Part shown: positions 2,395 through 28,971 of the stretch, in pieces
How the letters are laid out: every line of letters begins with the position of its first letter
How positions within the stretch are numbered: position 1 is the stretch's first letter
Translations under genes and position numbers: made by a program
Origin: a virus
Direction: 5' to 3' (one strand)
IMG/VR virus record: IMGVR_UViG_3300009185_000072
Span: 1 to 30,107 of that record
DNA: 30,107 nt
Notes under the pieces: model-generated
The model's input: only the letters and a program-made list of their open reading frames with translations
Database searches by the model: none
Told to the model about the DNA's origin: nothing

Positions 2395-2425
2395 GCTACT
2401 TATTGCGGGAAAAGTAGGGTTTAGG

Positions 2426-5939: not shown

Positions 5940-5962
5940 ATACTATTGTTTAAGTGGTAAGG

Positions 5963-6397
5963 TTACTGAGGGTTGACCACGATCAGGACGTCGTAACCGA
6001 ACACGGACGCCCAGGAGCGTTCGTTAACCCCTTCGTCCTCGGACAGTGGGGTGACGTCATAGCATAGGGCATCGCCCCCAGCTACAAAGACCGCCTTGAT
6101 GGCCGTAAGGTCCTGCATAGACCCAGCTACGGCAGCGCATCGGGCGCGGTGCTCGGCTAGGGTGTTATCGTCGGCAGACGAGAAGACAGTGATCCGTGTA
6201 CCACACGAATAGTTACCAAGCCCCTGGGGCATATCGTTAGGCGATCGTGCCGAGTCGCAGAGGACAATGGCCTTAGGCAGTACGTTGGTATCTGCACCGT
6301 CGCCGGTGTAGATGGAAACTCCGGCCAGCTCGGTCTGAGCTGATAGGTGGGAAGCGATAGCCGCTTCGAGGATTTGACGTGAGGATTTCGTGCCCAT
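5963..6397 (-). CDS. Candidate tail terminator / tail completion protein (144 aa)
   Basis: Begins with a helix (SRQILEAAIASHLSAQTEL), then alternating strands and helices, and ends in a strand-rich SWASVFGYDVLIVVNPQ. This pattern of one N-terminal helix with a following alpha/beta sheet is that of gpU-like and DUF3168-type tail terminators, which cap the tube and join it to the head. Its position just upstream of the tube candidate agrees. It is separated from the previous gene by eight bases. Confidence 0.55.
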   Translation of the reverse strand: MGTKSSRQILEAAIASHLSAQTELAGVSIYTGDGADTNVLPKAIVLCDSARSPNDMPQGLGNYSCGTRITVFSSADDNTLAEHRARCAAVAGSMQDLTAIKAVFVAGGDALCYDVTPLSEDEGVNERSWASVFGYDVLIVVNPQ

Positions 6398-7739: not shown

Positions 7740-7768
7740 GTGTTGGGAGGGTAGGGAATTGGAGATAC

Positions 7769-7793
7769 AAAAAAGCCCCCATCGCTGGGGGCT
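7769..7793 (-). terminator. Strong intrinsic terminator after the capsid gene
   Basis: On the minus strand a perfect seven-base-pair stem AGCCCCC/GGGGGCT with a six-base loop is followed at once by six T residues (7774-7769). It lies 21 bases past the stop of the major capsid gene and 30 bases before the next start. It probably ends or attenuates the head-gene transcript, so tail genes are made at a lower level or from another promoter. Confidence 0.93.
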
Positions 7794-7814
7794 GTTTCAG
7801 GCCGTCAGCCCAGA

Positions 7815-8669
7815 TTAGGGGTTGTAGACGGAGGCGATCGTGCCGGTCGTGATGCCCTTGTTCGCGCCGAACATCAGCTCGAAGGAGCCGACGAGGTTAC
7901 GAGTGGAAGGATCACCCCAGACATTGTAGAACACGCTCAGACCAAGACCCGGGAGAACGAGCGACTCGCTGACGAGGAACTGGTTCTGGGTAGCGGAGAA
8001 GTCCGGCTGGGCAGCGGCCATCGCCACGGCTTCGGACGAGCAAGCGAAACCAGCCAGTTTGGCCTCGGACGGGAAGAGGGAAGCGTAGTGAACGCCGCCT
8101 TCAAAACCGTAAGCACCTTCAGAGAGGGGCAGGGAGGTCGTGCTGGTCGGGATAAGCTGGGAGTAGATGCCCGGGTTCACGATGAGCGCCTTGCGGCCAG
8201 CCTTCGAGACGCCAGCCCAGAGAGCGCGGAGGTTGTCCGAGCCAGGGGTGACAGCCGAGTCGGCAGCGGTGACAGTGGCAGCGCCGAAGTTAGCGACGGT
8301 GATAGGAGCAGTAGCGGCGGCCCAGATGGCGTCGGCGAGCTTGTCCATGTTGATCTGCACGATGCGTTCCAGCTTGATGCCATTCTGGATATCGCCGTAG
8401 GCGAGACCGAAGGGCTGGTACAGGTGGGCGAGCGTGACGGCAGAAGCACCGAGCGTGGAAGCGCCGATGGTCGAGAAGTCAGTCGGGTTGGTGACAGTCG
8501 TGCTGCCAGCGGTCGAGAGCGAAACCTGGACGACGTCGGCCGGGCGCTTAACATCAGCGGAAAAATCCGTGGTGAAATGGCTGAGGGCCGCGAGACGGTT
8601 CGCGAGTTTGGTGAGGCCGTATTCGCTGACAGTGTCAACGATCAGGGCGCTGTTGATGGTATTAGCCAT
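7815..8669 (-). CDS. Major capsid protein
   Basis: A 284-residue protein starting MANTINSALIVDTVSEYGLT. It follows portal, protease and scaffold-like genes and precedes a strong terminator, the expected place of a highly expressed coat protein. The text has coat-like features: an N-terminal helical arm, a Ser/Thr/Ala-rich strand region, AGRKALIVNPGIYSQL in the middle and a C-terminal strand VYNP end. Composition (high Ala, Ser, Thr, few Cys or Lys) is typical of coat proteins with the HK97 or P22-type fold. The exact capsid family is not assigned. Confidence 0.85.
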   Translation of the reverse strand: MANTINSALIVDTVSEYGLTKLANRLAALSHFTTDFSADVKRPADVVQVSLSTAGSTTVTNPTDFSTIGASTLGASAVTLAHLYQPFGLAYGDIQNGIKLERIVQINMDKLADAIWAAATAPITVANFGAATVTAADSAVTPGSDNLRALWAGVSKAGRKALIVNPGIYSQLIPTSTTSLPLSEGAYGFEGGVHYASLFPSEAKLAGFACSSEAVAMAAAQPDFSATQNQFLVSESLVLPGLGLSVFYNVWGDPSTRNLVGSFELMFGANKGITTGTIASVYNP

Positions 8670-9094: not shown

Positions 9095-9107
9095 ATACTA
9101 TTGCGGA

Positions 9108-10253
9108 TTAGGTAAGGTTAGGAATCACCCACAGCTTGCAGATGCCGTTAGGGTCGATGTCGCCAGCGACGATACCACATCCGCGAGGACCACGGTAGAA
9201 AACGCAGTTCTGGCAGAGGAGTCCTTCAGAGGCGAACGGGGAGACCGGGGCGTAGTGCGCGCCATCAGGCCCGGTGCTCTGGTCGAATGCTCCGAAGGTT
9301 TCTTCGATGTCGATATACGAATCGACCATTTCCTTTTGACGCGGGGTGAGCAGTTCAAGGACATCGTCCTCGACCTCGGACGCCAATGGCTTGGCGATGG
9401 CCTTGGCCTTCTTGCTAGTCTTAGCCATGGTAATGCGCTTAGCGTCCTGACCATCCGAACCCTCGAAGGATGCCAGGGCAGAAGCAAAGGACGTAGCAAG
9501 GCCGGTGATAAGGTTCTTAGCTGCGGCTTCTTCGCCCGTGAAAATCTGGCCTTCCATGTCGGCACGGTTAGCCATCGAGCGCTTACGCAGTACGACCTTT
9601 TTAAACTGTTCATGCATGGCGTCGATGCGGGCCTGCTCTTCAGCGCGCATCTCGTCAGAGTAGCCTTCTCCTGCCACATTGGCCGCCTTATACTTTCCAG
9701 CGCGGAAGATTTCCATTTTCAGACCAATCTGCTCGTAGTAAGCCGCGTAGGACTCATCGACCATGATCACACCGATGGAGCCGACGTAGGCGCTGTTACT
9801 AGCCACGACTTGATCGGCTTGGCTAAACGCGTAGACCGCCCCTGATGCCATCATGTCTTTAGTGTAAGCCATGGTAGGAAGCGGGATGCCTGCGACCTTG
9901 TCGGCAAGCTCAGGGGTTCCGAGGACAGTACCACCAGGAGAAGAGACGTTGAAAGCGATACGCTGCACAGCCGGGTTATCCAGCATATCGTCAATCTGGT
10001 TAGTAATGTCTTCCATGTCTACGCCCCCGGTCATGCGCTCAAACTTGGAAAGGCCAAGCCCCATGGCCCCCTTCACTGTGATTACGCCCGTGCCCGACTG
10101 AGTAACGTACGGCTTCTCGACAGGGTTAAAAAACATATCGAGCACGCCGTCGATAACGCCGTACTTCTCGGCGTACTTCATGTGATTGGCCGCCTTGATG
10201 GGGTCAATTAGCATCGGCTCTTGGCCGGACAATCCTGAGATTAAGCACTTCAT
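9108..10253 (-). CDS. S49-family prohead protease with a C-terminal cysteine cluster
   Basis: The protein carries the SppA/ClpP-like S49 fold: NVSSPGGTVLGTPELAD around residues 102-118, the nucleophile Ser137 in MMASGAVYAFS, SAYVGSIGV at 154-162 and the general base Lys189 in FRAGKYKAA. The 52-residue Ser-Lys spacing is the same as I recall for Bacillus SppA. It processes the prohead during maturation, as lambda gpC. Residues 347-373 add CxxC, then C and C (CQNCVFYRGPRGCG, NGICKLW), a possible metal or Fe-S site. An in-frame ATG at 9428 (residue 276) could give a nested C-terminal product. Confidence 0.9.
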   Translation of the reverse strand: MKCLISGLSGQEPMLIDPIKAANHMKYAEKYGVIDGVLDMFFNPVEKPYVTQSGTGVITVKGAMGLGLSKFERMTGGVDMEDITNQIDDMLDNPAVQRIAFNVSSPGGTVLGTPELADKVAGIPLPTMAYTKDMMASGAVYAFSQADQVVASNSAYVGSIGVIMVDESYAAYYEQIGLKMEIFRAGKYKAANVAGEGYSDEMRAEEQARIDAMHEQFKKVVLRKRSMANRADMEGQIFTGEEAAAKNLITGLATSFASALASFEGSDGQDAKRITMAKTSKKAKAIAKPLASEVEDDVLELLTPRQKEMVDSYIDIEETFGAFDQSTGPDGAHYAPVSPFASEGLLCQNCVFYRGPRGCGIVAGDIDPNGICKLWVIPNLT

Positions 10254-11977: not shown

Positions 11978-11981
11978 ATAA

Positions 11982-13811
11982 CTATTGGGGGGCAAGTAAG
12001 GTTTGAGGCTCGTCCCTACCGATCAGCCCCCAACGCGCGGCGATGAGCATCCCAAGCAACTCACAGTCTAGGGCGTGGTTATGCTTAACCCCTTGGCGCA
12101 GTCGCCAGATAGGCTTCCCTGCTTCCTTTACCCTGAGCTCACTATCGAGCTGGGCGATATAGTCAGGCAAGGCATCACGGGCAAACGTGAAGACCTTACG
12201 AGCGCGCGTGCCCCAGAATAAATCCTTGCCCGAGAGATTCGACCACACGACCAGTGTCGTGGGGTTGCGGACGCCCGGCACGTGAATAGCCGTGGGCGTG
12301 TTGTAGAACCGACGCACCGCGTCACCGGCCTTCGTCTTGACGTTGAAATACTCCTGGCCTGAACCCTTGGCGCACTGCCAGCCACGGGTAGCGCATTGCT
12401 TGTAGACCTCCTGCGTAGAATTACCGTCACCAGAGTCTACCATGACAAGCTGCGGATGCACCCCATGCTTTGCCACTAGGGCATCTATCCCGCTCCAATC
12501 TGTCAGGCCATCGGTGCTCATAACTTTTCCGAACCAGACTAGGCGGCTATGCCCGGTACGCGCCCACTGCCTAAGCACAACCCACAGGTGGTCACCCTGA
12601 CAGTCGATAGCGGCGGTCAGGAACTTAACCGAGCCTTCAGGGGCATCGGCCTTGTCCACGATCTGACCGCGTGGGCCAATGTAGGCCACTGCCTCCCAAG
12701 GGTCTGCCATAGCGTAGTCCGAGGACTCAGTGCTTACCACCATCGACGCGGTGTCATCACTCCAAGGCTGTGCCAAATACTGGGTCTTGAATATTTTGCG
12801 GGGGGTCAGGTCACCCAACTCAGCGACCTCCTTCGCCTTGATCATGTCCACGGCCAGAGAACCCCAGCTCGTAGACGCCAGAGCGTTGACGTGTAGTCCG
12901 ACATACCCGGCCTTCTCGGCCTTGGCCGTCGAGAAGAACCCAGCGCCGCGTTCGACCTCGTTGCACGTCGTGCGGACCTCGTCGTTGTCCTCAAGCCGCG
13001 TCTTGCACTTCGAGCACTCGTAGGTCGTGCCGTTCTGCACGGCCTCAAGGTCCCAGCCGTCGATGCCCTTAGCCCCTTCTGGGAATCTGATGTAATCCCA
13101 TAGCCACGGCTGCCGGTGCTGGCACGTCTCGATCGGGCAGACGAACATCCACTGACGCTGGTCAGTCATCAGGTAGAACTTCCAGAACTCAGCGCCTTGG
13201 CCTTCGATATCCCCTGGCTGGCTTTCGTACACAGCTTTCGACGCGAACGCCGCCGCCTTCAGTCGGCTCATGCTCATGGCTATTGCACCGTTAGGCCATT
13301 GCCAGATTTCCGAGCCGAGGACGTATCGGACGTGCAGACTCTGCAGGTGCTTCTCGGTTGATGCCGATCGGTTGTGAATCAAGCAGCCGTCCGCAAACCG
13401 TAGCGTCCCTGACTTGTCGTTATCGTCGGCGCTCATCTGCGAGCGGATGTCACCGACCTGCTCGAACAGGGGCCGCAGCTCATTAAGCGTGAATCCCTTC
13501 GCCTTGTCCTGCGAGTCGAGGTAGATAGCCATCGACGCTCGGCGGTTAGCCATCAGGTAAGTCGCAATCAGTTTGAGCGTCAGCGTCTTCCCGCAGCCGA
13601 TGGCCCAGGGCATGAACATTCGGCTCGTTGTAGGCTGGTTGAATATCCGCACGGCCTCACCGATCCACGGCCAGCGCTTCGGGTTGTACCCTCCGTCGAA
13701 CACGCCAGCAGGAATCTTCTTAACGTTCTCCTTGAGGTACGCGACCGGGTCGCTCAGGGCTGACGGCCTCACGACCGCAAGTCCCTCCTGGAACAGTTCC
13801 TCGGCGTTCAT
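11982..13811 (-). CDS. terL: Large terminase subunit, lambda gpA (GpA) family
   Basis: A 609-residue packaging motor and DNA-cutting enzyme. The P-loop is IGCGKT (71-76). Nuclease acidic residues occur in AAIDCQGDHL (Asp403), VMVDSGDGNSTQEVY (Asp459) and NHALDCELLG (Asp582), the three signature positions of the GpA family. Cysteines 225/230 and 266/269 could bind zinc. The usual Walker B Asp-Glu is read here as YVLGSE (163-168), with Ser in place of Asp. The start at 13811 overlaps the previous stop as ATGA. GpA-type terminases usually cut at cos sites, so cohesive ends are likely. Confidence 0.95.
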   Translation of the reverse strand: MNAEELFQEGLAVVRPSALSDPVAYLKENVKKIPAGVFDGGYNPKRWPWIGEAVRIFNQPTTSRMFMPWAIGCGKTLTLKLIATYLMANRRASMAIYLDSQDKAKGFTLNELRPLFEQVGDIRSQMSADDNDKSGTLRFADGCLIHNRSASTEKHLQSLHVRYVLGSEIWQWPNGAIAMSMSRLKAAAFASKAVYESQPGDIEGQGAEFWKFYLMTDQRQWMFVCPIETCQHRQPWLWDYIRFPEGAKGIDGWDLEAVQNGTTYECSKCKTRLEDNDEVRTTCNEVERGAGFFSTAKAEKAGYVGLHVNALASTSWGSLAVDMIKAKEVAELGDLTPRKIFKTQYLAQPWSDDTASMVVSTESSDYAMADPWEAVAYIGPRGQIVDKADAPEGSVKFLTAAIDCQGDHLWVVLRQWARTGHSRLVWFGKVMSTDGLTDWSGIDALVAKHGVHPQLVMVDSGDGNSTQEVYKQCATRGWQCAKGSGQEYFNVKTKAGDAVRRFYNTPTAIHVPGVRNPTTLVVWSNLSGKDLFWGTRARKVFTFARDALPDYIAQLDSELRVKEAGKPIWRLRQGVKHNHALDCELLGMLIAARWGLIGRDEPQTLLAPQ

Positions 13812-14866: not shown

Positions 14867-15191
14867 TGATCAGGTTATGGGGCTAAAGGTAAGGTTAAGT
14901 GAAACTATAACTCGGCGGGGTTGTATGCGGCCGTGTGCAGTTGTATGCAGGGCTTGCATACACCTTAACACACTGACTACCAGCATAGTTACAGAAGCCC
15001 CCTACTACTTACCTATAACAATAGATAGATAGATATAGAGAGAGAGAGGAGAGGAGGGGATAGGAGGGGGTATCCTATAAAGGGGGTTATATATCCCCAA
15101 GGCTGCATACAGTCCACGGCTAACCTAAAGCGTTACCGCTACAGACACTTAAGGTGTATGCAGTTACGGCTAGGCCGCGTGCATACAGCGA
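14867..15191. other. Gene-free region with iteron-like repeats: candidate origin or packaging (cos) site
   Basis: About 325 bases without a credible gene. The six-base word GTATGC occurs at 14923, 14943 and 15156, and its reverse complement GCATAC at 14956, 15105 and 15181; GTGTGC at 14935 is a near match. Longer matches include TTAAGGTGTATGCA at 15149-15162 and its inverted copy near 14957-14970. Between the repeat groups lies an asymmetric purine-rich tract (15020-15070) with ATAG and GA repeats and a TA-rich palindrome near 15085-15097. The place, between the primase-helicase and packaging genes, suits an origin, a cos site, or both. Confidence 0.6.
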
Positions 15192-17834: not shown

Positions 17835-17872
17835 AGGGTGCGGGATGGCCCAAGGTGTCGGTAGGGTTGCGG

Positions 17873-18834: not shown

Positions 18835-20207
18835 CGTTTAGAGTTTCGTGCCTTGAACACGTTGTGCGCCCAGCCGTAAGGGTTCTTCATGCCTCTGGCT
18901 TTGCCGACGCGGATCAGGTCCTCAAGAGTCTGAGCCGTGCCCTGCTCCCGCTTGCGGCTTCGGACGGCCTCACGTGCCTTCAGTTCCTCTAGCTCGCCAT
19001 CTACCACGTCAGGGATGCGGTCCTTGATTTCGTAGACGTGCAAGCACTGCGGACAGGCTGGGCTTGGAGTATGAACTGCGAAGCACTCCGGGCATTGGCG
19101 GGTGTCGGCCACATCGTCCTGCGGGCCACGCTTGCTCCGCTTGCGGATGCCGTCGAGGGACCAGTCTCGGACCTCTTCGGCTAGGCCGTGCCGCCTGCAG
19201 TTGCCTACATGGTCTAGGATGACGGCGCGTGGCTTGCCCGGTGACGGACGGAGGACTCTGCCCACTTGCTGGAGGTGCAGAGATAGAGATGCCGTCGGCC
19301 TAAGCAGGATGGCTGTCGATACGCACGGCAGGTCAAACCCCTCTGAGACGATGTCCACGCTGACCAGCCCTTGCAGTGCACCTGTGGACAGGTCGAGGAC
19401 TCGGCGCGCGCGCTCTTCTTTGGCGAGCGTACCGTCGATGACCTTGAACCGATAGCCTGAAGCGTTGAACGCCTGGGCCACGTGCTCGGCGTGCTTTATT
19501 CCTGTGCAGAACACGATGCACGGCTGTCCTTCGGCGTACTTGCGGTAATGAATGACGGCGTCGCCGGTGATGGTCGGGCGGTCCATACGCTCGGCTACTT
19601 CGGCACGGTTATAATCTCCTGCCACCATGTGCACACCTGTAAGGTCCACGGTCTTAGGGGCGTAATACACTGGTTTACATAAGTACCCCTCATCTATGAG
19701 TTTTGTAACCTCTGGCCCACGGATCAGGTCGTCGAACACTTGGCCGAGGCCCTTGCCGTCTAGGCGCTGCGGAGTAGCGGTGACGCCGAGGACGCGCGCT
19801 TCAGGGTACTGGGCGAGCACTGATGCCCAAGCACCGGCAGTGGCGTGGTGTGCTTCGTCGATAACGATGAGGTCAGGAGCCATGACGCGGTCGAACCTGC
19901 GGACGAGCGTCTGCACGCTGGCGATCTGCGTGAGATGAGAGCGGTCGGGCGTAAGGCCAGAAGCGATAAGGCCGTGAGGCACGTCCATCTGCGAGAGTGA
20001 GCGGTGGCACTGCTCCAGGAGTTCGGCGCGGTGGACGAGCACAAGGGTGCGGTTGCCCTTGGCCGCAGCTGAGGCGGTGATATAGGAGAAGATGACGGTT
20101 TTCCCGGAGCCTGTAGGGGCGACCAGCAGGGGACGGCGACGGCCAGCCCTGAAGGAGTCTCGCACCGCATCGACGGCGGTTTGCTGGTAGGGACGGAGGT
20201 CGAACAC
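18831..20207 (-). CDS. SF2 DEAH-type DNA helicase (458 aa)
   Basis: Clear superfamily 2 motifs: Walker A APTGSGKT (30-37), VIDEAHH (115-121), GVTATPQR (141-148), and motif VI QQVGRVLRP (313-321). A Cys4 zinc ribbon follows (C372, C375, C385, C388). This RadD-like arrangement of helicase plus zinc ribbon is common in phages and acts in replication-fork or recombination processing. Start is GTG at 20207, supported by TCCCGCA directly upstream (20209-20215). It opens the minus-strand replication block and overlaps the methyltransferase-like gene by four bases. Confidence 0.92.
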   Translation of the reverse strand: MFDLRPYQQTAVDAVRDSFRAGRRRPLLVAPTGSGKTVIFSYITASAAAKGNRTLVLVHRAELLEQCHRSLSQMDVPHGLIASGLTPDRSHLTQIASVQTLVRRFDRVMAPDLIVIDEAHHATAGAWASVLAQYPEARVLGVTATPQRLDGKGLGQVFDDLIRGPEVTKLIDEGYLCKPVYYAPKTVDLTGVHMVAGDYNRAEVAERMDRPTITGDAVIHYRKYAEGQPCIVFCTGIKHAEHVAQAFNASGYRFKVIDGTLAKEERARRVLDLSTGALQGLVSVDIVSEGFDLPCVSTAILLRPTASLSLHLQQVGRVLRPSPGKPRAVILDHVGNCRRHGLAEEVRDWSLDGIRKRSKRGPQDDVADTRQCPECFAVHTPSPACPQCLHVYEIKDRIPDVVDGELEELKAREAVRSRKREQGTAQTLEDLIRVGKARGMKNPYGWAHNVFKARNSKR

Positions 20208-20252
20208 GTGCGGGAAGGGGGCAGAGTAGGGGTCTGGAGGGGTCGGGGCAAG

Positions 20253-20281
20253 TTGTATAACTGAGGGGGTAGATTTATAAC
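20253..20281 (+). promoter_or_regulatory. Candidate sigma70-type promoter for the plus-strand operon
   Basis: TTGTAT (20253-20258) and TATAAC (20276-20281) are separated by 17 bases, close to the sigma70 consensus. They lie in the divergent gap between the minus-strand helicase and the plus-strand operon, about 55 bases before the first start. The same gap must also hold the helicase promoter, which I could not place with confidence. Confidence 0.55.
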
Positions 20282-20336
20282 GGTTAGTGCTTTACGGCAG
20301 ATGTAAGGGTGCTAGGTTGATGGCCTCCCGCACAAC

Positions 20337-20546
20337 ATGACTACTAAAAACCTGATCAAGATTGCCAATGCCTTTGCCGCTGCCTTTGCCGCGTGCAACG
20401 CCGCTAAGACTCGCGAAGAGTTTAAAGCCGCCGAGCCTACGCTCGACGCCGCGCTGATTGATTACCGCAAGGCCCATGGCCTGTGCGACGGCCTCGGCCT
20501 GCTGGACTGCATCAATCATTTTAACCGCACTTACGCTAACGCCTAA
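20337..20546 (+). CDS. Small hypothetical protein (69 aa)
   Basis: First gene of the plus-strand operon. Ala-rich helical N-terminus (IKIANAFAAAFAACNAAKTR) and a C-terminal GLLDCINHFNRTY segment that resembles the end of the next protein. The start follows TCCCGCACAAC (20326-20336), the shared leader. No function can be assigned. Confidence 0.7.
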   Translation: MTTKNLIKIANAFAAAFAACNAAKTREEFKAAEPTLDAALIDYRKAHGLCDGLGLLDCINHFNRTYANA

Positions 20547-20561
20547 TCTCCCGCACATGAA
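20544..20561 (+). repeat. 18-base direct repeat spanning a stop, leader and start (copy 1)
   Basis: TAATCTCCCGCACATGAA, identical to 20656-20673. It contains the stop of the gene before, the TCCCGCA leader and the start of the gene after. An exact junction repeat suggests duplication of a gene cassette or strong selection on the leader. Confidence 0.95.
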
Positions 20562-20658
20562 ACTCCTCATCGCCCTCCTCGCTGGCCTTGCGCTGGCCCT
20601 CTACATCCTGCTGCTGTCCGATGGCCCTAGCCTGCTGGACATCATTAACCGTTTTTAA
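20557..20658 (+). CDS. Very small membrane protein (33 aa)
   Basis: A single hydrophobic helix (LLIALLAGLALALYILLL, about residues 3-20) followed by SDGPSLLDIINRF. It is flanked on both sides by the same 18-base junction repeat, which includes the leader and start codon. The C-terminal LLDIINRF matches LLDCINHFN of the preceding protein. Short one-pass phage proteins can be inhibitors, lysis regulators or membrane anchors; the role is unknown. Confidence 0.65.
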   Translation: MKLLIALLAGLALALYILLLSDGPSLLDIINRF

Positions 20659-20673
20659 TCTCCCGCACATGAA
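20656..20673 (+). repeat. 18-base direct repeat spanning a stop, leader and start (copy 2)
   Basis: Second exact copy of TAATCTCCCGCACATGAA, again joining a stop codon to the next start codon. The distance between copies is 112 bases, enclosing the 33-residue gene. Confidence 0.95.
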
Positions 20674-20977
20674 CCACCGACCCAAAGCAATCACCGACCC
20701 TGTCCGTCTCGAAGCGGCCAAGGAACTCATCCTCAAACACCGGGCGAAGTCCGGCAAGCAGAGCCAATACGAACTATACGGCTTCCTCTTCGGCCTACGC
20801 GTCCAGATTGACCGCGTGGACCACGCTCCGACCTCTGGCGAGTTCGCCCCGCTGATCGGCAAGAAGCGCATCGCTTCGCTGTTCACGGCCTACGACCTGA
20901 TCGTCGAGTTCCGTGGCGTCTGGAAGACCGATGCCGAGGCTAAGGTCGTCGCATGGGAGGCCGCCAGCAATGCCTGA
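20669..20977 (+). CDS. Hypothetical protein (102 aa)
   Basis: Charged, helix-rich cytoplasmic-type protein starting MNHRPKAITDPVRLEAAKEL. The start at 20669 is set by the TCCCGCA leader at 20661-20667; an upstream extension in the same frame would overlap the 33-residue gene. A C-terminal LFTAYDLIVEFRGVW segment is hydrophobic but too short for a sure membrane span. No family recognised. Confidence 0.7.
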   Translation: MNHRPKAITDPVRLEAAKELILKHRAKSGKQSQYELYGFLFGLRVQIDRVDHAPTSGEFAPLIGKKRIASLFTAYDLIVEFRGVWKTDAEAKVVAWEAASNA

Positions 20978-20999
20978 CCCACTCTCTCACCATCCCGCC

Positions 21000-21335
21000 A
21001 TGCTCATCATCAAACCAAACTCCATGCCGCCACTCTGGTGGCTCTTCCCCTGGTCATACGCCCGGCAGTTGTACCGCAACGGTCAGGCGCTCAAGGCTCT
21101 CTGCGACAGGCAGGACGACCTGCTAAAGGTGAAGACCGGCAATCGTCAGCGCTGGTCCATCTGGATCAGTGGCCTCCCCGGCCCTGACCGCAAGTATATG
21201 TTTAAGGATAACGACGTTAATGGCAACACTGTCGGAGACTACCTTCACTGTGTTGGAAGTTCTTGGACCATTATGAAAGACCCAGAGGACGCCATCATCT
21301 TCTGCGACCGACTCAACAAGGGGGCAATCAAATGA
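21000..21335 (+). CDS. Hypothetical protein (111 aa)
   Basis: Begins MLIIKPNSMPPLWWLFPWSY, an aromatic and hydrophobic N-terminus that could touch the membrane, followed by a basic and then acidic soluble part (YMFKDNDVNGNTVGDYLHCV). The start at 21000 is chosen because TCCCGCC stands just before it; an in-frame ATG at 20970 would overlap the previous gene. The stop overlaps the next start as ATGA. Confidence 0.65.
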   Translation: MLIIKPNSMPPLWWLFPWSYARQLYRNGQALKALCDRQDDLLKVKTGNRQRWSIWISGLPGPDRKYMFKDNDVNGNTVGDYLHCVGSSWTIMKDPEDAIIFCDRLNKGAIK

Positions 21336-21538
21336 ACCTGACCCACCACCAGCTAGCGACCCGGCATATGGCGACCGAGGTCGAGCACATTAACCGCCTG
21401 ATCTACACGAAGGACTTGTCGGTGTCTAAGGCAAAAGAGATGCTGGCCGAAGCCGCTCACGCCGCCAAGCAGCACTGCAATGGCTGCACCATCAAGTTCG
21501 GTATCAACGCCGGGCGCGCCTGGTTCAACGTCCTATGA
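21332..21538 (+). CDS. Small hypothetical protein (68 aa)
   Basis: Helical N-terminal two thirds (ATEVEHINRLIYTKDLSVSK, EMLAEAAHAAKQHC) and a short C-terminal strand. The paired Cys in HCNGC could bind metal, but only one pair is present. Start and stop both overlap neighbours by four bases, so translation is probably coupled. Confidence 0.65.
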   Translation: MNLTHHQLATRHMATEVEHINRLIYTKDLSVSKAKEMLAEAAHAAKQHCNGCTIKFGINAGRAWFNVL

Positions 21539-21774
21539 GCGACATTAATCACAACCGAATGATTCCCCTGCACATCGCCGATCAGGCCGTGGCAAACTGT
21601 GAGGCCGAGATCACGACACTGAAGGCCGAGGTTCAGCGCCTCAAGCACCGCGCCGAAGGACTCCGAGAGGCTGGCGATGAGCTGTGGTTCTGCATCCGGC
21701 ACGGTAAGCGCCTGAGCCATGCCGAGGTCCAGGAAGCGGTCGAGGACTGGCAGGACATGAGGGCCAAGCAGTGA
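21535..21774 (+). CDS. Small coiled-coil protein (79 aa)
   Basis: Residues 15-48 form a heptad-like coil (NCEAEITTLKAEVQRLKHRA). The C-terminus is Trp-containing and acidic. ATGA and GTGA overlaps link it to both neighbours. The next gene has a similar coil plus ending, so the two may pair or derive from a duplication. Function unknown. Confidence 0.65.
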   Translation: MSDINHNRMIPLHIADQAVANCEAEITTLKAEVQRLKHRAEGLREAGDELWFCIRHGKRLSHAEVQEAVEDWQDMRAKQ

Positions 21775-22049
21775 GCGACGTACGACGCTACGACATCGAC
21801 GAGAATGGGGTCTGCACCCATCAGCTCGATGGGGCTTTTGTTTCCTACGAGGACTACGCCCGCCTACACTACGAACGTATCCACGACCTTAACCAGATCG
21901 GTGGACTGCAGGAGGAGAACGCCCGCCTCAAGGCACAGGTCGAGCGGCTGACCAAGGCAGGGGATGCGATGGCTGACCGCCTGATGTATCAAGGCTACCC
22001 CGCAACTGTCCCCGCATGGCTCGCCGCCAAGGAGGTCAAGCAGCCGTGA
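21771..22049 (+). CDS. Small coiled-coil protein (92 aa)
   Basis: GTG start at 21771 inside a GTGA overlap. Acidic N-terminus with SYEDYARLHYERIHDL, then a coil (LQEENARLKAQVERLTKAGD) and a short C-terminal segment. The phrase coil-then-AGD matches the preceding protein (LREAGDELW), suggesting distant relationship. Function unknown. Confidence 0.65.
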   Translation: MSDVRRYDIDENGVCTHQLDGAFVSYEDYARLHYERIHDLNQIGGLQEENARLKAQVERLTKAGDAMADRLMYQGYPATVPAWLAAKEVKQP

Positions 22050-22201
22050 CCCGCCCCCAGAAGCGACGCCCTGAGCGCCTGCGTCCTGGCCTTAAGCAGC
22101 AGACGCCGGTCGAAACTAAGGCCACCGCCCGCGAACTGGCCGAGCACCGCAAACGCTGGGAATACCTGTTCAGCCTCAACGTCTTTAAGTCTGCCCCATG
22201 A
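22046..22201 (+). CDS. Very small basic protein (51 aa)
   Basis: GTG start at 22046 in a GTGA overlap with the gene before and ATGA overlap with the gene after. The N-terminus is strongly basic (TRPQKRRPERLRPGLKQQ), the C-terminus aromatic (KRWEYLFSLNVFK). Nucleic-acid binding is possible from charge alone. Confidence 0.55.
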   Translation: MTRPQKRRPERLRPGLKQQTPVETKATARELAEHRKRWEYLFSLNVFKSAP

Positions 22202-22554
22202 CCAGTCCCTATAACTCCCACTCCTCGGCGATCAGTGCGATGAACAACCTGATTGATAAGCACGTCCCCATGCGGGAAGCCGCCCTGCAGGAGCATTACA
22301 TGAAGGCAGACGAGACGCGCGCGCTGCTCAAGGCGATGGGGTGCTGGCCGAAACCGACTGGCCGTCCCTCTGAGCTGAGAGGTAAGAAGCCCAAGAACGG
22401 TAAGACCGCCAGCGAGAAGGGGCGTGAGGCTTACGAATGGGCGCGCAAGAATAACGCCACCTATACCGAAGCCGCCGAACGGTTTCGCATCTCTGCTGAC
22501 TCCATACACTCCTACCGCCAATACCGCAAACTCCCTAAACTCAAAACCAAATGA
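22198..22554 (+). CDS. Probable helix-turn-helix protein (118 aa)
   Basis: Residues 78-110 (YEWARKNNATYTEAAERFRI then SADSIHSYRQYRK) read as a helix-turn-helix with a basic recognition helix. The middle is Lys/Gly/Pro rich (GRPSELRGKKPKNGK), like a flexible DNA-contacting linker. The N-terminus has a second helical segment around REAALQEHYMKADETRALLK. Likely a DNA-binding regulator. Overlaps both neighbours by four bases. Confidence 0.65.
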   Translation: MTSPYNSHSSAISAMNNLIDKHVPMREAALQEHYMKADETRALLKAMGCWPKPTGRPSELRGKKPKNGKTASEKGREAYEWARKNNATYTEAAERFRISADSIHSYRQYRKLPKLKTK

Positions 22555-22718
22555 ACCCCCCAGAATACTACGACGAACTGACCCGCCTCCGGCTACGACT
22601 AGCCGAGGTCGAACTCCAGCGCGACGCCTTCAAAGCCATGGCCTCCCACGTCCTGAAGGACCTTATCCGAGAGGTGCTGACCGAACAGGCTGGCGTAAGC
22701 AATCACCCCAATGGCTAA
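22551..22718 (+). CDS. Very small coiled-coil protein (55 aa)
   Basis: Start ATG overlaps the preceding stop as ATGA; the stop TAA at 22716-22718 overlaps the following gene by eight bases. Residues 5-45 are mostly helix (YYDELTRLRLRLAEVELQRD). The tight overlaps on both sides and the clear frame support a real gene. Function unknown. Confidence 0.6.
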   Translation: MNPPEYYDELTRLRLRLAEVELQRDAFKAMASHVLKDLIREVLTEQAGVSNHPNG

Positions 22719-23037
22719 CCGCGCTGAGTACGGAGCGGTGCAGGCCGCAGTCATCGCCGGGCATGAACATGGTATGTCGGTCAACGACATCGCCAAGCAC
22801 ACTGGTTTTAATATGCGGTCTATCCGATCCGCAGCTGAGGACCTGTCGATTGCCCTACGCCGTGAGCGTAAGCCGTTCGGGTCGGCCAAGGCTCTGGTTT
22901 ACGAAGCCCATGCCCAGGGTATGACCGTCCCGCAACTGGCAGAGGCGTCAGGGTTTAGCCGTCACACGCTTTACAGTGCCCTACGTCGGCACGGCCTGAC
23001 CCTGCCACGTGCCCGCCAAAGCCGTTTGACCCCATGA
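22711..23037 (+). CDS. Tandem helix-turn-helix protein (108 aa)
   Basis: Two copies of the same helix-turn-helix unit: residues 20-44 (HGMSVNDIAKHTGFNMRSIR) and 69-93 (QGMTVPQLAEASGFSRHTLY). Both follow GM(S/T)V-x-x-(I/L)A-x-x-(T/S)GF-x-x-x-(S/T)(I/L)-x-SA. Such paired domains let one chain bind a repeated operator. It may control the phage promoters or the downstream endolysin gene, whose start overlaps its stop as ATGA. No ligand domain is present. Confidence 0.8.
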   Translation: MANRAEYGAVQAAVIAGHEHGMSVNDIAKHTGFNMRSIRSAAEDLSIALRRERKPFGSAKALVYEAHAQGMTVPQLAEASGFSRHTLYSALRRHGLTLPRARQSRLTP

Positions 23038-23507
23038 CCCTAGTCCTAGCCCTATCGGCCGCATTGCTCACCTCTGAGGCCGTCCCAGAGGCAGTCGTTC
23101 AGGCCGTGGAACAGGTCGAGTCCTCTGGCCGTGGGGCTAAGACCCCCGATGGGGACCGGGGAAAGGCTATCGGATGCCTTCAGTGGCACTCTGCCGCGTG
23201 GTCCGACTGCTCGGCTGTCCGGCTCAAGGCCGGGCTGGCCGTCTACCCTTACTCTGACGCCAAGGCCCCGATCAGAGCGCGAGAGTATGCCCGCACCTGG
23301 CTAACTGTCCTGAAGGTCAGGCTCGCTACGCAGTTAGGTCGGCAGCCGTTCCCCGGTGAAATCTGGCTGGCATGGAATCTTGGCTGGTCTGGCTTTCAGC
23401 GCTACGGTTTCAGCTGGGCGTTCGTCTCCCGCGTCAAGTTCGATAAGGCTAGGCAGGTGAACACGCTGGCTTGGGGCTTGCCAAAACGACCTGCCATCTC
23501 AAGGTAA
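23034..23507 (+). CDS. Lysozyme-like endolysin (lytic transglycosylase fold), with N-terminal export signal
   Basis: Residues 1-17 (TLVLALSAALLTSEAV) are hydrophobic and suit a signal or signal-arrest segment. The domain then follows the lysozyme-like pattern: QAVEQVESSGRG with catalytic Glu at 29, a loop, GKAIGCLQWHSAAWSD (43-58) and helices with ARTWL and LAWNLGWSGF. This pattern belongs to goose-type or transglycosylase enzymes that cleave peptidoglycan glycan strands. It ends the plus-strand operon, far from the holin-like genes, and its start overlaps the regulator. A virion-associated enzyme is possible but less likely in this place. Confidence 0.8.
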   Translation: MTLVLALSAALLTSEAVPEAVVQAVEQVESSGRGAKTPDGDRGKAIGCLQWHSAAWSDCSAVRLKAGLAVYPYSDAKAPIRAREYARTWLTVLKVRLATQLGRQPFPGEIWLAWNLGWSGFQRYGFSWAFVSRVKFDKARQVNTLAWGLPKRPAISR

Positions 23508-23567
23508 CAGGTGAGGCCCGGACAATATCACTTGTGCGGGATCGCAACTGAGGGCAGTTCGGGCTTC

Positions 23568-23591
23568 GGGCCATCCGCAAGGGTGGCCCTT
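23568..23591 (+). terminator. Convergent hairpin between plus and minus operons
   Basis: A nine-base-pair stem GGGCCATCC/GGGTGGCCC (one T-G pair) closed by a GCAA tetraloop. It lies between the endolysin stop and the minus-strand stop at 23590. No long T run follows on the plus strand, so termination may be weak or rely on other factors; it could also serve the minus strand in part. Confidence 0.55.
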
Positions 23592-24087
23592 ACCGTTTAA
23601 TAAACAGACGGTCTAGGTCGGTCTTCTTGTAGTATGCGTTCTGGTGCAAGCCAATGATGCCCCTAGGAGTCTTGAAATACTTAGGCTTCAGGCCAGCCCT
23701 AGTAATGCGTCCACGTAGGGCCACATCAGATACCCTAGCTGATAGACAGTAGTCCATGACCCTGATCCATCCCTTCGGAACCTTGTCAGCCTGATGGGCG
23801 AACAGTCCTTCAGAGGCTTCCCGGATGGAGCGGTAAGGCGGGAGGGGCTTATAGACGTATGCCTTGTGGCACTGCCCGGTGTTGGCTTTAAACTTGTGGG
23901 CCTTGCGTTCCAGCAGTCCACGACGGAACAGATCGTAAGCGCGAGAGGATGCGTTCCTGGTATAAGCCATACGTAACTCAGCGCGGATATCTTCCACGGT
24001 ATAAAACCCGGCGGGGCAAGGGTGGTCCTCGGCGCTGGCCGTCAGTTCCCGCATTAGGCGGGCGAGTATGTCGGCAGGCTTGCTCAT
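23590..24087 (-). CDS. Probable DNA-binding protein with winged-helix-like parts (165 aa)
   Basis: The N-terminal half reads like a winged helix (GFYTVEDIRAELRMAYTRNA, then AYDLFRRGLLERK). The C-terminal half has a second helix-turn-helix-like segment (SARVSDVALRGRITRAGLKP) with a basic KYFKTPRGI loop. The start at 24087 overlaps the upstream stop as ATGA; a longer frame to 24192 is less likely. Last gene of the recombination block. A regulator is inferred. Confidence 0.65.
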   Translation of the reverse strand: MSKPADILARLMRELTASAEDHPCPAGFYTVEDIRAELRMAYTRNASSRAYDLFRRGLLERKAHKFKANTGQCHKAYVYKPLPPYRSIREASEGLFAHQADKVPKGWIRVMDYCLSARVSDVALRGRITRAGLKPKYFKTPRGIIGLHQNAYYKKTDLDRLFIKR

Positions 24088-24845
24088 ACGTTGATGCGCC
24101 AAGGTTGCCCGGCCAGTTCCTGCGGGTGGACGTAGAGGGTAGGCACGATCAGGTCGTCGGAGTACTCGCCATAGCAGATGGCCTGACCCCACGAAAACGT
24201 TTTACGCCTAGAGTTAGCGTAATCCATGCAGGCCATGCGCGTGAGCGTCCCGACGTTGATGCCGGTCGGCGCATCGTCGCGGCGTCCCTTGGCTATGCCA
24301 GGGGAATGAGTATGCCCGAAGATGACTACCGAGACGCCGCCCTTACAATACATCTCGGCCATGTCGCGGCAGGCTGACTCGTTGTAGATAGAACCGTGGG
24401 TAATCAGACCGTTACCGATGCGAGAGCCTTGCCAGATTCCCCGGTAAGGGATTTGCTTGGCCTTCAGCTTCTTGCAGTGCTGCTGGATTTGCACGATCAG
24501 GAGACGCGCGCACTCGGACACGACCTCGTTAGTAGACTGAGCCAAGCGGAAGAGGCGGGCCTCGTGGTTTCCGTCGTGCACGACTAGCTCTAGGTCCTTG
24601 TAGGCTTTCAGCTGCTCAAGGAAGTTGAGGCCCTCTTCAACGTCAGGGGCCAGCGGGTCGCCTTCGCCTTTGCCGCCGCCCATCATGGGGGACAGGTCCG
24701 TATAGTCTCCGGCATGGTCAAAGCGGTGGGGCCGGAATGCCTTAATAAAATCAGTCACCCCTTTCTGAGCGGACGGGTCTATGAAATGCCCATGCGAACA
24801 GGATACCACCGCGAACCGCTTCCATTTCCTGACGATGTTGCTCAT
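24084..24845 (-). CDS. Calcineurin-like metallophosphoesterase (253 aa)
   Basis: Motifs of the binuclear metal phosphoesterase fold appear in order: AVVSCSHGHF (near 12-21, SxxHG rather than the usual DxH), FDHAGDYTD, VVHDGNHEARL, LITHGS and VIFGHTHSPG. The changed first motif (Cys-Ser-His in place of Asp-x-His) is worth noting. In phages such proteins may remove phosphates from nucleotides, DNA ends or proteins. Start overlaps the upstream stop as ATGA. Confidence 0.85.
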   Translation of the reverse strand: MSNIVRKWKRFAVVSCSHGHFIDPSAQKGVTDFIKAFRPHRFDHAGDYTDLSPMMGGGKGEGDPLAPDVEEGLNFLEQLKAYKDLELVVHDGNHEARLFRLAQSTNEVVSECARLLIVQIQQHCKKLKAKQIPYRGIWQGSRIGNGLITHGSIYNESACRDMAEMYCKGGVSVVIFGHTHSPGIAKGRRDDAPTGINVGTLTRMACMDYANSRRKTFSWGQAICYGEYSDDLIVPTLYVHPQELAGQPWRINV

Positions 24846-25462
24846 CGGTACAGGCTCATGGACTGAGTGAACTTGCGTGCCCACTGGCTGATCAGTTCGA
24901 CGGAACCATCCGGGAAGCCTACTTGCAGAGCATTGTCCCTGGCGAAGTAACCGCGAGCGGCCATCAATCCAATCGACTCAGCCTCGGCGTTGTTGGCTGG
25001 CAGATTGCCTTGGCGCTCGATGTAGATAGGGACGTATGCCCAGCCGCGCTTAATGCACAGGGCCTCTAGCTTCTGGTACTCGTTGGCGTAGCGTAGGTCA
25101 GGGATCAGGACAACCGAGCCGGTGGAGTCTGAGTCAGCGACAGTCTCGTCTGCCCACGTGTTGATGTTCTCGATGACCTTATCCACCCAGACGTTCTGGT
25201 TCTGACTCCGGCAGTATTCGCCGTAGGCTACCAGCAATGGACGCAGTTCGGATTTCTTGGCCGTGTCTTCGGTATAGACATCTGACTTCACGCCCGCCTC
25301 GTTTAGCGAAGCCTGGAGGGAATGTTTCAGCGCGTCGGCAAACTTCATCACGATGACTGAGTAGCCCGGCTCGTCTTGCTCCAAGTGGTCGAAGATAGCA
25401 TCGGCCATCGTGTCCTTGCCCGCCCTTGCAAATCCCGCAATTGGGATGACGACGTGTCGCAT
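24842..25462 (-). CDS. Phage nucleoside-monophosphate-kinase-like P-loop protein (206 aa)
   Basis: Walker A GFARAGKDT (10-18) close to the N-terminus, then FADALKHSL, and later VVLIPDLRYANEY, a pattern I know from phage deoxynucleoside monophosphate kinases (T4 gp1-like). These make dNDPs for replication. ATG at 25462 is preferred over a longer start because a terminator hairpin sits in the extension. Its stop overlaps the phosphoesterase start. Confidence 0.75.
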   Translation of the reverse strand: MRHVVIPIAGFARAGKDTMADAIFDHLEQDEPGYSVIVMKFADALKHSLQASLNEAGVKSDVYTEDTAKKSELRPLLVAYGEYCRSQNQNVWVDKVIENINTWADETVADSDSTGSVVLIPDLRYANEYQKLEALCIKRGWAYVPIYIERQGNLPANNAEAESIGLMAARGYFARDNALQVGFPDGSVELISQWARKFTQSMSLYR

Positions 25463-25495
25463 GGATAGACTTTCTGCTGTCGTATCTGCACCTAC

Positions 25496-25532
25496 GCAAA
25501 CAATAAGGCCGACCCCCTTACGAGGATCGGCC
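25496..25532 (-). terminator. Intrinsic terminator after recT
   Basis: On the minus strand a nine-base-pair stem GGCCGATCC/GGGTCGGCC with an eight-base loop is followed by TTATTGTTT. It lies 27 bases past the recT stop and before the kinase start. It would separate or attenuate expression of the kinase-phosphoesterase genes from the recombination genes. Confidence 0.75.
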
Positions 25533-25558
25533 CGGCTACACGGCACTCCTGCGTTAGC

Positions 25559-26341
25559 CTAAATGTCGATAGGTTCGTCGGCGCTTACGACGGCCTCTGG
25601 TTCGGTGGCCTTAGCCTTCTTCACTGCTTCCTTGATGGCTTCAGCTGCGGGCTGGACTGGCTGGCCTTCAACCGTGCGGTGGCCGTACTCTGCCTCGTTG
25701 TCCTTGTGGATGGCTTCCTGCACGTCACGCGGCAAGCGGGGGAGCCACTTGGCAAGGCGCTTAAACGCGGTCTTCTTCCACATCTCCATCGGGTAGGTCG
25801 CCCAAGGGCCGGATGCACCAGAGCGGCTGGCCTTACGGATGGCTTCCACCTCAGCCTTGCTCATTTGAATAGCGGCAGTCTCACCGTCCTTGAAGCGAAC
25901 CATGGCGTAGACCGCGTAGGCTTCGCCCCGATCCTTGGACAAGTCCACGACGTGCTCCTCGACCTTGCCCAGGTTGAAGCGGTATTTGTCATTCTGGCAG
26001 ACAATGTCGGCGTGGATGTGGGCCACTTCGCCGGAGCGCATGACCAGCGCAAGGATGCCCTTGTAGTCGAACTGCAGGGTAGCATCGTTGCCGTAGGGGA
26101 TGAGGTGGGCATGGTGGCCGTCCGGCATCAGACCCCACTGAGCGGCTTGCAGGATGACCGAGGCCACGCTGGCGGGGGTGCAATCCCACAGCTTCGGGTT
26201 CTTGTTACAGGCGGTGATGACGCAGCGCATGAAGCGGCTGGCGTCTTCTGCGTTGGGCAGGGCCTTGGCGACCTGCTCCTGGAGGGACTGCGAGCGGACT
26301 AGCTCGATGGTATTCTTTGGCTGGACTGCGGGTGTGCTCAT
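25559..26341 (-). CDS. recT: RecT single-strand annealing protein (260 aa)
   Basis: Typical RecT pattern: NAEDASRFMRCVITACNKNP, then PASVASVILQAAQWGLMPDG, HLIPYGNDATLQFDYKGILA and PMEMWKKTAFKRLAKWLP. The protein coats single-stranded DNA and anneals it to complementary strands. The C-terminus is acidic and low in complexity, as in relatives. It lies directly downstream of the RecE-like exonuclease, the usual pairing. Length is normal for the family. Confidence 0.95.
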   Translation of the reverse strand: MSTPAVQPKNTIELVRSQSLQEQVAKALPNAEDASRFMRCVITACNKNPKLWDCTPASVASVILQAAQWGLMPDGHHAHLIPYGNDATLQFDYKGILALVMRSGEVAHIHADIVCQNDKYRFNLGKVEEHVVDLSKDRGEAYAVYAMVRFKDGETAAIQMSKAEVEAIRKASRSGASGPWATYPMEMWKKTAFKRLAKWLPRLPRDVQEAIHKDNEAEYGHRTVEGQPVQPAAEAIKEAVKKAKATEPEAVVSADEPIDI

Positions 26342-26352
26342 GGTGGGAAGGG

Positions 26353-27141
26353 TTATGCGTTAAACTTAGAGAGGTCCACTTCGATGACACCGGGGCCGGT
26401 CTTCTTAGGCCAAGCCTGCGGGTCCATACCCAGCGTGGTCTGGTAAGCGGCCATCAGGTCGAGTCCTTTGCGGTAGCGACGGCGTCCGACTTCGATGTCG
26501 GCCTCGGTCATTACGAACACTTGGACGAAGATTTCAGGGGCTTCCTTGCCCTCGATGGCGATGAAGGCAAAGCCTGTAGGTTTCTTGCCGGTAGCGATTT
26601 CGATGCCGTCAGTATACAGGGCCGACTGGCGGTCATATCCAAACTCCCAGCAGCTGCGCCTAAAAGCAAAGTGCTCAATGGATGGGGTAGTTTTTGCGTC
26701 TACGATTAGGCCGTCATCGCGGTAACGATCAGGACGGCAGCGCATCTCGATGCCGGTGATGGGGTCAGTCCAGAAGAACGAAGCCTCGTTGACGCCTTCA
26801 CCTGAAAGCAGGGTAGAAGCCTCAGTGTCCTCCTGCACAGCCTTGGCGATGTTGCAGAGTTGGACGTACTCGTCGTGGCTTACGATCTCCTTACCAATGC
26901 TTGCCATTTCAAACTCCTCTTCGCGGGCCTTGGCTCCCTTGCCCTTGTCGAGACCCTCGGGCATCACGGCCCATTCGGAGCCGACGAGCTGAGGCTCAAG
27001 GATGATGGTGTGGACAAGCGAACCCCAGCGGAGGGAAGGGGTCTTCTTGCGGGGGGTGTTCATGAGTCGGGGAGACTCAAGGAAGCGGGACAGTTTTGAG
27101 TTACTGACCGCCGGGCTGGCGTGGTATTCTTTGTTATTCAT
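26353..27141 (-). CDS. RecE-like PD-(D/E)XK exonuclease (262 aa)
   Basis: PDDEXK-type features: SFFWTDPITGIEMRCRPDRY with Asp138, LIVDAKTT with Asp148 and Lys150, and YDRQSALYTDG with the Q-x3-Y pair at 172-176. Length and the N-terminal MNNKEYHASPAVSNSKLSRF are typical of the DUF3799 / RecE C-terminal group. It would resect double-strand ends to expose single strands for RecT. The start follows TCCCCGCA (27143-27150). Confidence 0.9.
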   Translation of the reverse strand: MNNKEYHASPAVSNSKLSRFLESPRLMNTPRKKTPSLRWGSLVHTIILEPQLVGSEWAVMPEGLDKGKGAKAREEEFEMASIGKEIVSHDEYVQLCNIAKAVQEDTEASTLLSGEGVNEASFFWTDPITGIEMRCRPDRYRDDGLIVDAKTTPSIEHFAFRRSCWEFGYDRQSALYTDGIEIATGKKPTGFAFIAIEGKEAPEIFVQVFVMTEADIEVGRRRYRKGLDLMAAYQTTLGMDPQAWPKKTGPGVIEVDLSKFNA

Positions 27142-27168
27142 GTGCGGGGAAAGGGGTAGGCGTTACTC

Positions 27169-28056
27169 TCACTTGTCGCCTCGGATACGAGGGTGACGCA
27201 TTGAGCCATCTGGCGTCTTGCTCTGGAACGTGACCTCAAGCCAAGAGCCGATGACGGTGTCGCGGTTCGCCCAGATCGTGGCGCGCTGCTCGTCGGTGAA
27301 GCCACCGCCCACGCGGACTAGGCGACCGTTGTTCTCGACGACTACGTGTCCCATCGTGCCAGCCAGACGGCCTTCGCCTTCATGGACTGAGACTACCGGG
27401 CAGTCCTCAGCGTCCACGGCCTTGACCTTGAGCCACGCGTTAGAGCGCTTGCCCTGAGCGTAAGGAGCGTCCGCGTCCTTAATCATTGCTCCTTCAAAAC
27501 CCTGAGAGACGAAGCGACGGAACGCATCGTTAGGCGAGATGCCCATGAAGGACTCGACCAGTTGAACCTTGTCGGAGTAAGTGAAGCGAGCCATGACGGT
27601 GCGGCGCTCGCGGTAGGTTCCGACATCGTCGGGAACGTCAAGCAGCCAGAGGAACGCGTCCTCGGCACGGTCGTTAGAGCGGACAGCACCGACAGAATCG
27701 TAGAAGTCAGCGCCGGAGACGGCCTCACAGTCGAAGGTGAAGACGCCGTGCTTGCTGGCAGTGTCGGCGAACCATGCGCCGAGGTGAGCGATGGACGGAA
27801 GCGGGTTGCCGTTGCGGGTCTTCATGGCGACGGCCAGAGTCTGACGGCAGACCTCGACGATCACGCGGACGCCGTCAATCTTCGGCTCCACCGCGTAGGA
27901 CTCAGGAGTGATGCCCTTGTAGGGGCGGGCCAGCATAGCCTGGGACAGCGGGGCCTTGGCTTCCTTGCGCGGGCCAACCTTGAAACTAGGCTGGCTCTCA
28001 ATCATATTGAAAATGAACGCGTACAGCTCGGCGTTCGGGTCGGAGGGTGTGCTCAT
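27169..28056 (-). CDS. ATP-dependent DNA ligase (295 aa)
   Basis: Nucleotidyltransferase motifs: I VEPKIDGVRV with Lys59 as the AMP-accepting residue, III VFTFDCEA (105-111), IV FEGAMIKD (187-194) and V WLKVKAV (208-214), then an OB-like C-terminal part. It seals nicks in replication or recombination. The start at 28056 is set by TCCCGCACAAC and by a promoter-like sequence shortly upstream; an in-frame ATG at 28089 would overlap that promoter. It leads the ligase, RecE, RecT operon. Confidence 0.93.
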   Translation of the reverse strand: MSTPSDPNAELYAFIFNMIESQPSFKVGPRKEAKAPLSQAMLARPYKGITPESYAVEPKIDGVRVIVEVCRQTLAVAMKTRNGNPLPSIAHLGAWFADTASKHGVFTFDCEAVSGADFYDSVGAVRSNDRAEDAFLWLLDVPDDVGTYRERRTVMARFTYSDKVQLVESFMGISPNDAFRRFVSQGFEGAMIKDADAPYAQGKRSNAWLKVKAVDAEDCPVVSVHEGEGRLAGTMGHVVVENNGRLVRVGGGFTDEQRATIWANRDTVIGSWLEVTFQSKTPDGSMRHPRIRGDK

Positions 28057-28074
28057 GTTGTGCGGGATAGGCAA

Positions 28075-28810: not shown

Positions 28811-28971
28811 TTGCGGACGCTCATTAGAAGCATAATATTGGCGCAGGAGTAACAGGCCCACATGACGCCAAGGGCAGGACGACCAACGCAGAAGCAAGCC
28901 ACCCCTGCGGATGCGTAAGCCAAGGACGCAATGCCTGGGACGACGATCGTAGTAAACGTCTCGGTGGTCAT
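28807..28971 (-). CDS. Small Cys-rich membrane protein (54 aa)
   Basis: A frame of 54 codons with ATGA overlaps on both sides. The protein has two hydrophobic segments (about 9-29 and 34-51) with four Cys (ACFC, WACYSC). Its tight coupling between the HExxH gene and the holin-like gene supports it as real. It may be a lysis accessory, but no family is recognised. Confidence 0.65.
   Translation of the reverse strand: MTTETFTTIVVPGIASLAYASAGVACFCVGRPALGVMWACYSCANIMLLMSVRK

Follow-up and report, generated by a model that had tools for sequence, protein, structure and literature searches.

Early genes of this freshwater virus carry a short, exactly repeated box directly in front of their start codons, and its occurrence is real and positional; chance is contradicted both by the statistics and by the conservation. 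The window analysed here, a linear phage contig from IMG/VR, has 30,107 nt; its genes are called early or late on the basis of their functions. In our reading, the box is a start-associated leader that works at the RNA level in early genes and is specific to the lineage; it is probably targeted by a phage small RNA derived from a folded element with which the plus-strand operon ends. We give this reading a probability of about one half. The leader part of the reading is supported by the positional enrichment and from conservation that is independent of the flanks and persists through gene exchange. The small-RNA part is suggested by the only other conserved copy of the box, which is antisense and lies in the folded, terminator-ended 3' element.

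The window has 42 called starts, inferred from open reading frames and homology. Exact TCCCGCA occurs 16 times, both strands counted, and its one-mismatch copies show no overall excess (98 found, 115 expected), so that the signal is positional. Together with CCCGCAC, TCCCGCA is the top 7-mer in the last 20 bases before the starts, where it stands at seven of the 42 genes, compared with a mean of 0.09 for permuted 7-mers in the same 20-base window and with 3 of 795 other ATGs (Fisher P 5e-8). The claim of the preliminary description that the box is commoner before starts than elsewhere is thus borne out. The refined box is TCCCGCAC, eight pyrimidine-rich bases in sense orientation, 0-5 bases 5' of ATG or, as previously described for the helicase, GTG (position 20207). 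Exact TCCCGCAC occurs eight times in the window: six copies are at starts, one is antisense in the folded RNA element and one lies within the fibre gene. The carriers belong to replication and recombination or are small genes of the early region: they are the helicase, primase and ligase genes and three small early genes, with the variant CCCCGCAC at an exonuclease gene (Table 1). All are either first in an operon or separated by a gap of at least 10 bases from the previous gene, and overlapping genes have no box. Most of the 42 starts have neither a Shine-Dalgarno (SD) sequence nor the box, and many overlap or closely abut the preceding gene. The "many starts" reported previously therefore amount to seven box genes, plus four genes with a second leader. 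Among the sites listed at that time, those at 20209, 20326, 20549, 20661, 17839 and 28061 were confirmed, and that at 27143 was recovered as CCCCGCAC. The sites at 2404 and 9102 are parts of the second leader, which is longer and stands before late genes. The one at 20993 lies inside a gene whose homologues begin at 20970 and is not at a start, and the one at 28812 (TCCGCAA-ATG) precedes a real start and is kept in the nearest relatives only.

Table 1. Start boxes, antisense copy, promoter-like element and late-gene leaders in the window.
Feature	Position	Strand	Context	Conservation or statistic
TCCCGCAC box	20208..20215	-	adjoins helicase GTG 20207	kept in 11/11 relatives, upstream identity 0.38
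TCCCGCAC box	20326..20333	+	3 bases before ATG 20337, first gene of + operon	kept in all 13 distinct divergent regions
TCCCGCAC box	20549..20556	+	adjoins ATG 20557 (33-aa protein)	
TCCCGCAC box	20661..20668	+	adjoins ATG 20669	7/7 relatives
TCCCGCAC box	17838..17845	-	3 bases before primase ATG 17834	TCCCGCA in 13/13 relatives
TCCCGCAC box	28060..28067	-	3 bases before ligase ATG 28056	exact in 91% of 23 relatives (start-anchored window)
variant box CCCCGCAC	27142..27149	-	adjoins ATG 27141, DUF3799 exonuclease-like gene	CCGCAC in 19/19 relatives
conserved folded RNA element and terminator hairpin	23508..23596	+	3' end of + operon	z -5.1
anti-box GTGCGGGA	23534..23541	+	exact reverse complement of start box, inside TTGTGCGGGATCGCAA	TTGTGCGGGATCGCAA invariant
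promoter-like TTATAAC	20275..20281	+	~50 bases upstream of + operon box	in most relatives of divergent region
late leader AACCTTAC...CAATAGTTAT	11978..12003	-	before ATG 11977	pattern conserved in relatives
late leader AACCTTACC...CGCAATAGTAT	9095..9119	-	before ATG 9094	
late leader AACCTTACC...CAATAGTAT	5940..5964	-	before ATG 5939	
late leader AACCCTAC...CCCGCAATAAGTAGC	2395..2421	-	before ATG 2394	

Relatives were gathered by four protein scans of viral contigs, and their leaders were aligned on the start codon. Leader identity 17-45 bases upstream of the starts falls to about 0.2-0.65 while the box is kept, values that may mix overlapping pieces of one contig. The exonuclease leader, for example, has an identity of 0.97 at -8..-1 and of 0.20 further up. 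In the divergent region, both boxes stay although the first plus-strand gene is exchanged among relatives. The box is not a coding artefact, in agreement with the previous remark that it does not stem from one reading frame. Twelve close relatives hold 60 distinct TCCCGCAC copies, of which 52 sit 0-5 bases before ATG or GTG, all in sense, and the remaining eight all represent the antisense copy, located in the intergenic gap where the plus-strand operon meets the converging minus-strand gene. The longer pattern TAATCTCCCGCACATG, the box at the 20557 gene, was found in 19 viral stretches, 18 of them encoding relatives of the phage, including a more distant group of roughly 25-60% protein identity. 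Helicase relatives of less than 63% identity showed no box enrichment. Matches to TCCCGCACAACATG across viral contigs were mostly chance, and two box-pattern scans gave 85 loci without a homologue of the window and with fewer than two boxes.

The second leader, AACCTTACC-N-CGCAATAGTATATG, precedes four late genes and is longer than the start box. ACCTT stands 13-14 bases upstream of CGCA in the ligase and primase leaders and also in the late leaders, and this shared spacing suggests that the two leader types may have a common ancestor. Genes of the named phage P8625 (L241; 5448, 10772, 15594) have in common a leader of the type TTATTGGATAC-N-ATG; one of them directly precedes the portal gene, the same place as one of the late leaders of the window. 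Three further features were observed on the minus strand. Gene 14351, with which the late operon apparently starts, has a conserved promoter-like sequence, TTATAGTTTCACTT (~14868-14910), ~43 bases upstream of its GTG. At ~14310, where the gene preceding terL begins, the window has ATGAGTTTGAAAAC where relatives have ATGAGTTTTGAAAAC; the one-base difference shifts the frame and is perhaps an assembly error. A conserved terminator-like GATGGGGGCTTTTTTGTATC (~7740-7815) lies between gene 7815-8669 and the next gene.

SD sequences are mostly absent, as previously noted: SD-type 4-mers are at background, occurring at 6 of 42 starts and at 9 of 42 in a control window. The 16S rRNA of Opitutales has the normal CCUCC end, to which the pyrimidine-rich box is not complementary, and this agrees with the earlier statement that the box cannot pair with the usual anti-SD. 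Elsewhere in 16S rRNA, the best complementary sites were no better than those for permuted boxes. Low leader structure did not mark the box genes, since all starts are open. The box bears a likeness to the 3' acceptor strand of initiator tRNA; in the ribosome that strand is far from the mRNA.

The host is likely an Opitutia bacterium, judging from one binned contig and distant relatives. A terminase 95% identical to that of the phage is encoded on a contig binned in an Opitutia metagenome-assembled genome (MAG; G001); in a sample of the phylum, no other genome had a closely matching terminase. A second, more distant terminase contig, in an Aurantimicrobium MAG, may be mis-binned. The best portal match among named phages is P8625, a phage of Puniceicoccales (Verrucomicrobia), which also has phosphoesterase, kinase and RecT genes and whose starts also largely lack SD sequences. 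Some Verrucomicrobia are listed as SD-scarce (PMC10783764), and in the Opitutia MAG SD 4-mers stand before 12% of starts, compared with 13% in a control window. The previous suggestion to look for the box in related phages and likely hosts gave a divided answer: the box is conserved in the former and was not in use in the MAG sample, where neither CCCGCA nor CCGCAC occurs in the 14 bases before 235 starts. Order-wide counts of TCCCGCACATG were only modestly above those of a reversed-pattern control. The box occupies the SD position. The view that it replaces the SD sequence is too strong, because most starts have neither SD nor box and the sampled host also lacks SD sequences.

The helicase box and the box of the plus-strand operon diverge, and the region between them holds conserved TATAAC elements, of a type rare in the genome. 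They are promoter-like by sequence, and a consensus promoter scan did not report them. For the in-operon box genes, the pattern used found no TATAAC-type element within 100 bases upstream. The earlier proposal of a conserved transcription start is therefore not supported: a box that serves as a core promoter fits neither with separate elements ~50 bases upstream of the plus-strand box nor with in-operon boxes that have no -10-like element before them, though promoters of an unusual kind may exist there. Lying downstream of separate promoter-like elements, the box is most likely in the mRNA leader.

The antisense copy is the only conserved non-start copy of the box in the 12 close relatives. 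It lies in a block that occupies the gap between the plus-strand operon and the converging minus-strand gene in every relative examined, and the block folds more strongly relative to shuffles on the plus strand (Table 1) than on the other (z -2.5). The surrounding 16 bases, TTGTGCGGGATCGCAA, are invariant in 15 sequences. Two pairs of the terminator hairpin show compensatory changes, and P1 pair 3 is G-U, G-C or A-U among relatives, or lost on both sides together. No relevant Rfam family matched the element. A scan with the 16-mer found the fold only in relatives of the phage, and its matches in non-relatives lacked matching context or fold. A covariance model gave no convincing match in the more distant group or in P8625, and its match in L311 was without the P1/anti-box context; in the partial contigs of the more distant group, the box was found at one gene and the element was not detected. 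Some members of the clade have, between recT and the actual kinase start (ATG 25462), a second conserved stretch with a terminator, GCAGGAGTGCCGTGTAGCCGGG...GGGTCGGCCTTATTGTTTG (~25462-25560, minus strand), which may represent a further small RNA.

The predicted fold places CGGGAU in a loop, from which CGGGA could seed on UCCCG of the box. Exact complementarity between leaders and element extends over 8-10 bases overall, and the ligase and 20337 leaders reach ten (UCCCGCACAA). When the hairpin by itself is paired with the leaders, the duplexes at box genes are the stronger ones (P 2.5e-4). When the full-length RNA was cofolded, box genes were not distinguished from other genes (P 0.11), and equally good scores were obtained elsewhere in the genome. 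Neither box nor anti-box varies among the sequences compared. According to the reading that we prefer, the leader would be transcribed, and UCCCGCAC in it would contribute to an open site at which ribosomes land without an SD sequence. The 3' element would be set free as a small RNA, and its GUGCGGGA, by pairing with the box, would cover the start region of early mRNAs. Its putative targets, namely its own operon and the helicase, primase, ligase and exonuclease genes, would be turned down together, by analogy with the action of 3' UTR-derived autoregulatory small RNAs. A bolder version, in which the phage has a translational control code of its own, with a common 8-base early tag and a cognate folded RNA whose loop pairs with it and switches the early genes together, is at present tentative, and we lean somewhat against it.

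The same positional and conservation evidence would also be expected if the box were simply a translation leader, aiding a host or phage factor at uncoupled early starts, with the antisense copy having another role, such as a long-range contact within the plus-strand operon mRNA, or being a coincidence. The start-associated sequences (SAS) of mycobacteriophages provide a precedent, and the full-RNA energies, which do not single out box genes, are in accord with a leader of this kind. This explanation gives no account, however, of an exact antisense copy that is the only other conserved one and lies in an invariant hairpin, and we regard it as rather unlikely. At the DNA level the invariant hairpin forms an imperfect palindrome, so that a protein that binds DNA is also possible. 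A phage regulator might then bind double-stranded TCCCGCAC at early genes and the near-palindromic TTGTGCGGGATCGCAA between the convergent operons, and the inverted box pair around the divergent promoter region would suit such an operator. On the other hand, the strict sense orientation and the 0-5 base spacing to the start codon, even at in-operon genes without a visible promoter, the position of the 3' site where two operons end, and the plus-strand fold with its compensatory changes, which point to RNA, make a DNA operator improbable.

That the first plus-strand gene is exchanged behind a constant box, in a phage that encodes RecT, might suggest a conserved linker at gene borders that promotes early-gene exchange by recombination and has no role in expression. 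Eight bases are short for recombination, though, the spacing is tied to the start codon, and the single-copy helicase, primase and ligase genes keep the box without being exchanged; such a linker is very improbable. Still less credible are chance and the view that the box simply reflects a C-rich context usual at host starts. The sampled MAG starts are indeed C-rich at -1 to -3 and G-poor, but they include no copy of the box core, and the exactness, conservation and statistics of the box in the phage speak against both.

The SAS/ESAS of Cluster K mycobacteriophages are 13 bases long, with consensus GGGATAGGAGCCC and the SD core AGGAG; some copies have an upstream extension, and their function was left open when they were described in 2011 (PMC3203893). 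Like the SAS, the box is a short asymmetric repeat a few bases before starts in one orientation (mostly so for the SAS, and for 52 of 60 distinct copies of the box), belongs to non-structural genes, is conserved in a clade and is uncommon in the host (0 of the 235 host starts sampled). Unlike the SAS, it has eight bases, is SD-free and pyrimidine-rich, and recurs as a conserved antisense copy within a folded RNA. Lacking the defining 13-bp/AGGAG feature, the box was not classified as an SAS. The 3' element can be compared with OppZ, a 3' UTR-derived autoregulatory small RNA (PMC7398697): both are located at an operon 3' end and have a terminator hairpin, and the element may, like OppZ, pair with start regions of its own operon. 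In contrast to OppZ, the element is in a phage and would have one common target box at seven genes, and its processing and repression are putative. In Bacteroidota, translation is SD-independent and uses upstream adenines (PMC10783764). The phage setting shares with Bacteroidota and the SD-scarce Verrucomicrobia a normal 16S anti-SD with little SD use, and differs from Bacteroidota in its C-rich, exact box at phage early genes only.

How starts are recognized in bacteria with little SD pairing is largely open, and a conserved, repeated phage tag offers a concrete handle on this question in Opitutia. Should the folded RNA indeed act on this tag, a single viral RNA would control an entire early regulon through a dedicated box, which would be unusual, and start-associated repeats would gain a possible function.
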